NCBI GenBank assembly: GCA_905250025.1
Contig: CAJNOJ010000002.1
Span: 62,001-126,000 of the forward strand
Reading direction: 5' to 3'
Length of the DNA: 64,000 nt
DNA from: Adineta ricciae
Taxonomy: Eukaryota; Rotifera; Eurotatoria; Adinetida; Adinetidae
Shown: positions 12,451-17,003 of the stretch, one piece after another
Layout of the letters: every line of letters begins with the position of its first letter
Position numbering within the stretch: the first letter of the stretch is position 1
Made by a program: the position numbers and the translations under genes
The notes under the pieces: model-generated
Database searches by the model: none
What the model saw: the letters and a program-made list of their open reading frames with translations, nothing else
What the model was told of the DNA's origin: nothing

Positions 12451-14577
12451 ATGGCAGCTGCCAATTCTGATCAAACTCAATGGCACACATTTACCTGTGG
12501 CGAAGAAGAGTACACAGTGCCTATTCGATATAAAGATCCGAAAAAAATCGGATACGGTGCTTTCGGCGCTGTAGCGTAAGTACTAATATCCTCTTTGATT
12601 TTTCTATGAATACGTTCTTTGTCTAGTCAGATGACAGATACGGTATGAAAAATTACCGTTAATATCGCGGAATAAATATTACGGTATAATGAATTAGGTC
12701 ACCGGCAAAATTGTTGCTATCAAAAAGTTAATTCAACCATTTCGAGGCACAGAATATGCAAAACGAGCTTATCGCGAACTCAAATTACTCATGCATCTAG
12801 ACCATCCTGGTATGCATGTACGTAAATAAATGCTGACTTTCTTCTAATACTTTTTCCATGGATGTGTATTACTTGTAAATATACGTAGATCGTACGATTA
12901 TTGAACGTTTTCACACCTAATAATAACTTGCGCGAATTTGAAACTTTGTATGTTTGTTTATAAGGAAGTTTATCACCTATTGAGAACACTGATTGTTTAG
13001 TTATTTGGTGATGAAATATGCCGGTGTTGATTTGAATCGTATTATTAAAAGACATGCATTCACTGAAGAACATATCAAACAAATCATTTATTCGATACTT
13101 CGTGCTTTGAAAGTAGGAGTTTTCTATGAAAATTATAGTCTTCCATACAATACGAACGGTTTCGTTGCTCTTCAATTTCAGTTCGCACATTCAGCTGAAA
13201 TCCTTCACCGCGTAGGAATTTCTTTTTGAAAAATAGGTAGGAAATTATGATACGCTTTCAATATTTTAAATAGGACTTGAAACCATCAAATATTGGAATT
13301 GATGAAGATTCGAATCTCACGGTGAGTAGAAGGAGTATACACCTACTTTCGATCGCTTTCAACGATATTGACACTTTCCTCGGTTTATTCAATTGATTCT
13401 GATACATTTCAAGATTTCTCATAAAAAATTATTAAAATTACAAAACTAATGTTTTCGATCGCGCATGAAAACAAAAATATGAATAGTGTTTGTTTTTGAT
13501 AGATTCTCGATTTTGGCTTAGGACGTGTTGCAGCCGACGGGGATAAAACCGGTTATGTTCAAACAAGGTATACGATTCATCATTTATAAGAAATATAATA
13601 TTGACTTCGTTAGATGGTGGCGTGCACCGGATATATATACGAACTGGCAGAGATATGATGATAAATTGGATATGTGGTCTGTTGGTTGTATAATGGGCGA
13701 ATTGATTTTACGTAAACCAATTTTTCCTGGAAAAGATCATACCGATCATTTGAAGAAGATATTTGAAATTATCGGTACACCTGATAGGTCAACACTAGAT
13801 GAAATTTGCACACCAGGTTCGTAAGCGATGTGCAGATCAATTTTAGGTTTTAAAGGTTCTGAGAGGAATAATCTTGGATTGGGAATATTCAAGAGGAGTT
13901 CATAAGATCAAGAGAATATCGGTTGATAATAGTTCCTAAATTTATCGATATAGTATCACAGTTTGAATAACTACACAATATTCTCATTGCTGTGAAACAG
14001 ATTCTTTAGATGTGGTAGAATTTATCTCAAAAATGCCGCGACAAGTCGGACAAAATTTCAATGAACTGTTTGGTTACAAATATGCTGCAGGAAATCCTCA
14101 ACCAACATCCGGAATTTCACCAGTAGGTGTCGATCTTCTCCGACATCTTCTAACGTTTAATCATTTTGATCGGCCAACTGCTGAAGAAGCACTAGGTAAG
14201 TTAGTTTTCCGGACTGCAGTTCAATTGATGTGAACAATTCTGTAAAAATGTTTTTGTCTATGTAGCTCATCCATTTCTGACTGGCTTTCATAATCCTGAG
14301 GATGAACCGACTCTAGACTCATTGGTTGACGAACATCAAAATGCATGTTACAATGTGGAAAAGTGGAAAAGTAAATGTAACATACTCTATTCGTCTATGA
14401 GCGATCGTTATCGCAATTTAGTAGAATGAGTGTGGTGATTTTAGTTATCGATTGTTTAATACATTTAATGTCTTTTTAGGTATAATCTGGGAACTAATTC
14501 AACGGTTTGAGGAACCCGTAGTAGACGCTGACGATGATAACGACGATATGGATACCGATTCACAAAACATACCATAG
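12451..14577 (+). CDS. p38-type MAP kinase (active copy)
   Basis: Stress-activated Ser/Thr kinase of the p38/MAPK14 group, 391 residues in 12 exons: 12451-12575, 12627-12642, 12698-12817, 12889-12947, 13001-13112, 13182-13211, 13274-13321, 13503-13567, 13614-13816, 14001-14195, 14266-14370, 14480-14577. Catalytic motifs are intact: Gly loop GYGAFGAV, VAIKKL with the ATP-binding Lys, HRDLKPSN (split by an intron after HR), LDFGLGR, and the TGY activation motif. P+1 loop is RWWRAPD rather than the usual RWYRAPE. WSVGCIMGEL, FPGKDHTDHL and the C-terminal NPEDEP (common-docking acidic patch) fit p38. Exon 2 is a 16-nt microexon. The C-terminus ends in an Asp-rich tail. A related gene follows directly. 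Confidence 0.94.
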
Positions 14578-15158: not shown

Positions 15159-17003
15159 ATGGCTGCAGTGATCGAAAATCAAGAACAGTGGTATACGACA
15201 ATTTCTAACAACGAGACATTTACATTACCCATACGATATCAACATGCACATGTTACCGGAGAAGGAGCATTTAGTTTTGTTCTGTAAGTTCAAATGTACT
15301 TTCTTCTTCCTTTTTGATCGTCTTTGTACTTTAGTCAAGCGATAGATTCAGTACGAATGATAATGTCTAGGATTAGTAATGACTATTAATGTACTCTCAT
15401 TTAGAAAACAGGTAAATACGTAGCTATTAAAAAGGTGAGAGAACCTTTCCGAGATGCAATGCACGCAAAACGAACGTACCGTGAATTAAAACTTCTCTTG
15501 GATTTCAACTATCCGGATACACAAGTATGCACGCTCAACTATCATCTTACTTGCGAATAGCCATTTTTGATCATTGTAGGTAGTGCAATTATACAATGTC
15601 TTCACACCAGAACGAGATGTGAATAATTTTCAGACTTTGTATGATTTCCGAAAGGAAATTTTATTAGACGATGTATCATTCTGTGTGAATACCTTGTAGG
15701 TACTTTGTTCTGAATTACATTGATTATGACCTACACGAAGCTATTCAGTGTACGACATTTACTGAAGAACATATCAAATTAGTGATATATCAGTTACTTC
15801 GTGGTTTAAAAGTATTTTCGCTTGTCATCACTAGTGATTCGCAGTATATTAGGTGTTTTACTTTTGTTTTAGCTCATTCATTCAGCGGGGATTGTTCACT
15901 ATGTAATTATACTATAGAAAAATGAAAATATTGATTGACCGATGGTTTTTTTCGTTTCAAATAGGGTCTGACACCGCAAAACGTTAGGATAGACAAGTGT
16001 GGAAATGTCTCAGTAAGTGTTACAGTCGGTAAAGTATGCAGAAAAATCATCAATCAACATCGTCCCTCTTAATATTGTTAAGATGCACTTTCATACTCTG
16101 TCACTTATATTTAGATTACAACCGATTTTGTCGCTAATTTTCCATCCAATGATAACAGCGCTTGCAATATCCCCTCTAGGTATATTAAGAAAACCGATTT
16201 GGACTTGTCGTATTAAACACAGTCTCTCTGATTAGATCTTGGGATGCACCAGAGATACTTGCTAATCCAGCACAATGTAGTAGCAAAGTAGACGTATGGT
16301 CTGTTGGTGCCATCATGGCTGAATTGATCTTACATCAACCACTTTTCCGTGGAGAAGATCATATGGATTATCTAAAACAAATCATTGACGTTCTTGGTAC
16401 TCCTGATCCAACAAAGATAGACGAAATATGCATACCAGGTTGGTAGATAACATCCAAGCTAGACTTATGAAAATACTTTTACAGGCGCAGCGTCGTACAT
16501 CAAACAAATTCCAGTTCATCCACCACAAGATTTGAATAAACTATTCGGTTTCAAATACGCTGCAGGAAATCCGCAACCAATATCCGGTGTTTCACCGATG
16601 GGTATTGATCTTCTCAAATGTCTTTTAACTTTTGATCATCGTGACCGTCCGACTGCCGCTCAATCACTCGGTTAGCGAACTTTCAATACTGAGATTCAGT
16701 TGATGTTGTTAACCTGTCGCAAATTTTGTTTTTTTCTGCATAGCTCATCCATTTCTGGCCGACTATCATGATCCTATGGATGAACCGACTTTGAATTCAA
16801 TAGTTGATCAACACCAAGACGCAGAGTACAGCGTAGAGGAATGGAAAAGTAAGTGCATGGAACGATTCCGACTGATTCATTAAAGGCTAGTTAATAGTTT
16901 AAATCTGAATGAAATATGCCCTTGAATTTCAGAAATCATCTGGCAATTAATTCAAGATTTTGTTATACCATCTTGGGCTAACGAAAGCATTCACGATGAT
17001 TGA
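15159..17003 (+). CDS. MAPK paralogue, predicted pseudokinase
   Basis: Tandem paralogue of the preceding p38-like gene, 379 residues. Exons: 15159-15283, 15335-15350, 15405-15524, 15580-15638, 15700-15811, 15873-15902, 15965-16012, 16115-16179, 16236-16438, 16485-16670, 16744-16848, 16933-17003. Ten of 12 exon lengths equal those of copy 1, including the 16-nt microexon, and all phases close. The N-lobe Lys is kept (VAIKKV). The catalytic loop reads HYG then LTPQN instead of HRDLKPSN, so the base Asp is lost. DFG has become DFV, and the activation segment lacks TGY (FPSNDNSACN instead). The C-lobe is well kept: WSVGAIMAEL, FRGEDHMDYL, DPMDEP. An intact frame with selective loss of catalytic residues points to a pseudokinase rather than a decaying gene. 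Confidence 0.88.

Follow-up and report, generated by a model that had tools for sequence, protein, structure and literature searches.

Does a p38-type MAPK gene that has lost its catalytic residues, and that lies next to an intact relative, represent a dying gene or a protein maintained for another purpose? This question was raised by two neighboring genes of the bdelloid rotifer Adineta ricciae, designated here copies A and B, in a window of 64,000 nucleotides (C2:62001-126000, the whole stretch that was analyzed; positions without contig name refer to it). An earlier reading, made without any search, had described the second gene as a tandem MAPK copy turned pseudokinase with an intact gene structure. 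The searched genome comprised 130.46 Mb in 1033 contigs. The features considered are the following, A', B', P, P' and Q being further copies introduced below:

12451..14577, + strand: copy A, p38 MAPK of 388 aa in 12 exons; HRD, DFG and TGY kept
15159..17003, + strand: copy B, p38-type pseudokinase gene, 12 exons, 379 aa; GT-AG gene model
15335..15350, + strand: micro-exon 2 of copy B, 16 nt; also in A, A', B', P, P' and Q
15405..15524, + strand: exon 3 of copy B, with the kept beta3 Lys (VAIKK) and alphaC Glu (YREL)
15897..15967, + strand: HRD position of copy B, CAC TAT / GGT (H-Y-G), split by intron 6; the catalytic Asp is Gly, as in B'
16121..16129, + strand: DFG position of copy B, ACC GAT TTT (T-D-F), in a gapless exon 8; codon coordinates from the gene model
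16160..16168, + strand: TGY position of copy B, GCT TGC AAT (A-C-N); codon coordinates from the gene model
16744..16848, + strand: exon 11 of copy B, with the common-docking patch HDPMDEP

Copy A sits 0.6 kb upstream of copy B, and exon lengths were identical between them in 11 of 12 exons. Copy B extends from an ATG at 15159 to a TGA stop at 17001-17003; all of its 11 introns were GT-AG and its 379 codons contained no internal stop, in agreement with the open frame over 12 exons reported earlier. The 16-nt micro-exon completes the stretch VAQMTDT in A and VLQAIDS in B, located before the VAIKK strand. The Pfam Pkinase domain was detected in both proteins (E=7e-44 for B and E=9.6e-58 for A). 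Among the best 60 of 1570 matches, the top PDB sequence match of copy B was a MAPK14 (p38a) chain, which we take to be the human protein (E=1.1e-74; residues 11-374 of 379 aligned to chain residues 8-356). Identity with p38a amounted to 38 % over 349 aligned residues, and the C-lobe of B displayed 12 extra residues around FKYAAGNPQP, a place where other rotifer copies carry extra residues as well. Judged from its full-length best relatives and from an exon structure common with the TGY-bearing copies, copy B is by sequence a member of the p38 MAPK family. With its TGY motif absent, it would be p38 by descent and not a p38 MAPK by regulation.

Residues were numbered according to p38a, the roles given to them being those we presume for that protein, and a pseudokinase was defined as a kinase domain with at least one of VAIK, HRD and DFG lost. 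In copy B, VAIK was kept and both HRD and DFG were lost within a recognizable Pkinase domain. The catalytic loop reads HYGLTPQN where HRDLKPSN is expected, so that the earlier HYG reading was confirmed and extended by the loss of the catalytic-loop Lys152, now Thr. Changes R149Y, D150G, K152T, D168T, G170F, T180A and Y182N were found in B as well as in its homologue B', as were R173N, R189D, W187S and G36S; D150G, K152T and D168T deprive both of the active-kinase residues, i.e. the HRD Asp, the catalytic-loop Lys and the DFG Asp. Three arginines of the phospho-lip were also missing from copy B, presumably the readers of the phosphorylated lip. Residues K53, E71, G31, G33, V38, N155, R67, R70 and R186 were kept in both homologues, together with A190-P191-E192, D205 and W207. 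Mis-splicing that would hide an HRD was considered and rejected: CAC TAT precedes the donor, GGT follows the acceptor, and B' displays the same HYG and the same exon lengths. The junctions of B and B' both give HYG; hence neither Arg nor Asp is encoded there.

The DFG position required a correction. It had been reported as DFV, which needs a shift of one residue and is how HMMER aligned it; exon 8, however, is 65 nt long in both A and B, so that without gaps the column is TDF in B and TNF in B'. B' has Asn in place of the shifted Asp of B, which was therefore not conserved between the homologues. The loss of a working DFG thus stood, as its sequence lacks one under either alignment. At the TGY column, reported as lost, ACN was found in B and AFN in B'.

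The kept N-lobe Lys and DEP patch mentioned by the sequence-only reading were both recovered (K53 and MDEP), as was the alphaC Glu71. Compared with p38a, a protein of the same family, copy B therefore retains the beta3 Lys, the alphaC Glu and part of the common-docking (CD) patch, whereas catalytic loop, DFG and TGY are destroyed. Docking-site positions were those we presume from the p38a literature. In the CD patch, D313, D316 and E317 were kept and D315 was Met, as in Q and A'. In the docking groove, H126, I127 and I131 were kept or conservatively replaced, and I116 and Q120 were changed. The ED acids E160 and D161 read K-C in B and K-N in Q, a copy that keeps HRD, DFG and TGY; D315, E160, D161, I116 and Q120 differ from p38a in B and equally in Q. 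Since the ED acids and groove residue I116 are changed, docking by copy B may be abnormal.

With the B protein as query, searches of the genome listed 96 matches, and with A 118. Eight p38-like loci were modelled according to identity to A or B and to exon pattern, one of them (R) only in part. MAPK or kinase matches on e.g. C243, C177, C155, C81 and C126 were left unmodelled; some match A as strongly as R does, and the genome may contain a further p38 copy beyond these eight loci. Contig C5 (226.2-230.8k) holds collinear homologues of both genes, A' and B'. The frame of B' is open, its 11 introns are all GT-AG, and it displays the same HYGLTPQN loop and loss of TGY. In copy A' (L069:2233-4323), TAG occurs in frame four codons ahead of the stop used by A, so that the C-terminus of A' is slightly truncated. 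Another homologous pair is formed by P, ~415 kb away on C2 (493.3-495.3k, L070), and P' on C5 (704.7-706.6k, L071), in which most of the common-docking acids were lost (HLPTGEP). HRD, DFG and TGY were kept in A, A', P, P' and Q; of the CD acids kept in B, most are thus missing from P, which in turn has the three motifs that B lacks. Copies P and Q share the micro-exon with B and have nearly equal exon lengths. The intron between exons 5 and 6, present in A, B and P, is absent from Q (C32:474.3-476.6k, L072). Q was found once among the A/B search matches, and its homologous partner is maybe missing from or collapsed in the assembly. Locus R (C137:59000-62500, reverse strand, L073) is a p38 relative with HRN, no TGY and one GC donor. 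No match to exon 1, to exon 2 or to roughly the initial third of exon 3 was obtained within the examined C137 stretch; as judged by eye, the broken 5' end adjoins repeat-like sequence, and the rest of the frame is open as joined.

For A. ricciae, a GC content of 35.6 %, a homologue KS of 0.14 and an ohnologue KS of 1.27 are given in PMC5916493, which also describes homologous regions as largely collinear. GC content of the window ranged from 33 to 40 % per 2-kb bin. Values of dS (NG86) were 0.130 for A/A' (A' being cut at its early stop), 0.156 for B/B' and 0.158 for P/P', and reached 1.30 for A-Q, 1.45 for A-B and 1.83 for B-Q. We infer that C2 and C5 represent homologous haplotypes, with C32 as the ohnologous contig. 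ORFs flanking A and B on the left (2.6-6.2k and 10.7-11.0k) and on the right (18.3-21.5k and 24.5-26.5k) match C32 467.5-484.2k on both sides of Q and in the same order. Flanking genes being collinear around Q, the ohnologous locus has one p38 and the A/B locus two. In a tree rooted with p38a, Q fell outside the group formed by A/P and B, with a bootstrap of 80 % without R and 73 % with R. The position of R itself obtained a bootstrap of 53, so that R is at most a candidate sister of B in a pseudokinase clade.

Copy B would most simply be an old tandem duplicate made after tetraploidy, an order of events that relies on a modest bootstrap. A recent tandem duplication was rejected on the A-B dS of 1.2-1.45. 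The earlier description as a tandem copy thus fits synteny and tree, but the split is old, with a dS close to that of published A. ricciae ohnologues, and copy A is nearer the dispersed copy P (A-P dS 0.62) than its tandem neighbor. Third-position identity between A and B was 0.58-0.66 in exons 9-11 (16236-16848 vs 13614-14370) and 0.33-0.53 in exons 3-8. This likeness in exons 9-11 could stem from old gene conversion; in a test for A-B conversion, three of the nine sites differing in both pairs were shared within haplotypes and two across.

The presence of two diverged homologues permitted an estimate of selection on copy B. Coding sequences of B and B' differed at 67 positions, distributed as 22, 10 and 35 over the first, second and third codon positions; 36 differences were synonymous and 31 nonsynonymous, compared with 31 and 56 for A/A' (Fisher p=0.033). 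The maximum likelihood omega of B/B' was 0.272 and omega=1 was rejected (LRT p=6e-7), while P/P' and A/A' gave 0.249 and 0.483. By these estimates, purifying selection on B is about as strong as on P, the dispersed copy with TGY. Constraint on copy A was weaker than on B (A/A' omega 0.48; A-tip omega 0.40, p=0.015). A codon model that used 370 of 391 codon columns on the tree of the seven copies other than R yielded an overall omega of 0.235, with 0.19 for the B stem (p=0.34) and 0.23 for the B tips (p=0.87); dS on the long branches was near saturation, which makes the B-stem estimate soft. Relaxed selection over the whole frame, by which the sequence-only reading would have recognized a dying gene, was not seen, as B/B' omega was low and neither stem nor tips were raised. 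Conservation of B is measured here on one homologous pair and a single stem branch in one species. Gene conversion between homologues could make B and B' look younger and would not create a low omega. An omega of 0.27 does not tell which function of B is retained.

Loss and constraint were unevenly distributed along the protein. Losses were counted at sites where paralogue Q equals p38a, with residues 146-192 taken as a segment. Sites lost in B (and B') were 20 of 30 inside this segment and 31 of 138 outside (Fisher p=6e-6). Corresponding figures were 5/30 and 34/138 for sites changed in A, and 3/30 and 44/137 for P. Outside 146-192, 15 changes were found in A only and 12 in B only (p=0.70); over all sites, 29 were restricted to B and 17 to A (p=0.10). 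As A and B changed alike outside the segment, the excess loss in B sits in its catalytic and activation segment.

The comparison of B with B' gave another picture. Residues 72-164, which span the end of alphaC, the hinge, alphaD, alphaE and the HYGLTPQN loop, displayed no nonsynonymous and 12 synonymous differences over 93 codons; such a gap had P=0.003 among 31 changes. In the alphaD-alphaE stretch, these numbers were zero and six. Regional pN/pS was 0.30 in the N-lobe, zero in alphaD-alphaE, 0.16 (five nonsynonymous differences) in catalytic loop plus activation segment and 0.39 (17 nonsynonymous differences) in the rest of the C-lobe, which is therefore not the most constrained part of B today. 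The activation loop was still changing from B to B' (D174N, S181F, C187F). The contrast between C-lobe and catalytic loop, which the earlier reading had suggested examining, came out otherwise than docking alone would predict, and the lower constraint on the C-lobe is, on these sequences, unexplained by docking alone. We read the long-term pattern, the reverse of the one between B and B', as the sign of a protein that lost its enzyme function and then came under constraint again, and not of general decay.

Maintenance of copy B as a non-catalytic protein is very probable on this sequence evidence, and two other outcomes were weighed against it. That B is an inactivated duplicate not yet hit by a stop or a frameshift would accord with its changing activation loop and with the truncated appearance of R, which suggests that p38 copies die in this genome. 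Such a fate is nevertheless highly improbable, given the rejection of omega=1 and the stem and tip values similar to the rest of the tree. Moreover, introns of B and B' differed by 10.4 % and by three indel events, when exons had no indel and all 22 splice dinucleotides were kept in both; at the intron rate, exons without indel had a probability of 0.005 and unchanged GT/AG sites one of 0.008. In neutral simulations, 0.2-1.9 % of runs preserved a frame without stop at 0.10-0.156 substitutions per site, and 4.0 % did so at 0.08. B and B' displayed neither the relaxed selection nor the frame lesions of pseudogenes, and the statistics of omega, splice sites, indels and stops led us to reject the dying gene. 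Persistence of an enzyme, using migrated residues or other chemistry as some predicted pseudokinases do, is slightly less remote but unlikely. The beta3 Lys, the alphaC Glu, two of three loop glycines and Asn155 make nucleotide binding conceivable, the catalytic-loop stretch is constrained between B and B', and Drosophila p38c, in which TGY is TDH and further activity residues are marked as changed, is described as active on ATF2 in vitro (PMC4177744). Against this, B lacks Asp150 as well as Lys152, the gapless column has Thr in place of Asp168, and B' carries Asn where the shifted Asp would be.

It remains to consider how a non-catalytic B would work. A role other than p38 docking, e.g. as a transcriptional cofactor, has an appreciable but minor probability. 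Yeast Mlp1 and Slt2 belong to a MAPK subfamily different from p38. Mlp1 is a MAPK-family pseudokinase accompanying an active MAPK (Slt2/Mpk1) and, as reported in PMC9106771, activates Swi4/Swi6 non-catalytically, i.e. by binding. A cofactor role would also accommodate the HYGLTPQN loop, whose amino acids are identical in B and B', a constancy not required by docking alone. Nothing in this analysis, however, suggests a transcription factor as partner, and Mlp1 acts in phosphorylated form (PMC9106771) when B lacks the TGY acceptor. The reading preferred here, in which we have moderate confidence, is that copy B is a functional, non-catalytic and unswitchable p38 paralogue acting by docking. An MKK could not switch it at TGY and B should not transfer phosphate; without switch and without expected phosphotransfer, it would bind constitutively, by means of the docking surface that it has retained. 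It might then compete for, or hold together, MKKs, phosphatases or substrates of the intact p38 copies (A, P and Q), and thereby tune the p38 stress response by dampening or assembling signalling. A decoy or scaffold role is putative, as are the partners named here.

Among the systems encountered in the sources cited here, Mlp1 is the closest functional parallel and p38c of Drosophila melanogaster the closest animal case found. Like B, p38c is a lineage-specific p38 duplicate with a long branch and without TGY (PMC9846432). It differs from B by its reported activity, and the losses of B comprise the HRD Asp, the catalytic-loop Lys, DFG and three arginines of the lip; p38c enters this comparison by its published description. 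Table 1 of PMC9846432 lists diverged p38 paralogues with a branch at least twice that of the conserved one in C. elegans (PMK-3), Helobdella, Amphimedon, Clonorchis and Macrostomum, which are likened to B by branch length and not by HRD or DFG motifs. The main text of that article contains none of the words rotifer, Adineta and Brachionus, and none of the titles and abstract openings listed in literature searches concerned a rotifer p38 pseudokinase.

With its two diverged homologous copies, a single bdelloid genome offered its own test of whether a suspect gene was dead. The outcome was a p38 devoid of catalytic residues, under a constraint comparable to that on an intact paralogue and stronger than that on the tandem neighbor A. 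As an animal p38 without HRD, DFG and TGY under clear purifying selection, it goes beyond the p38c case as printed in the sources cited. A bolder proposal, advanced only tentatively, is that selection fixed an animal p38 that had lost catalysis, activation loop and phospho-lip reader together; it would compete constitutively with the active stress kinases, independently of phosphorylation, and might set the p38 threshold of an anhydrobiotic rotifer. Copy B would allow asking directly what a p38 does without catalysis.
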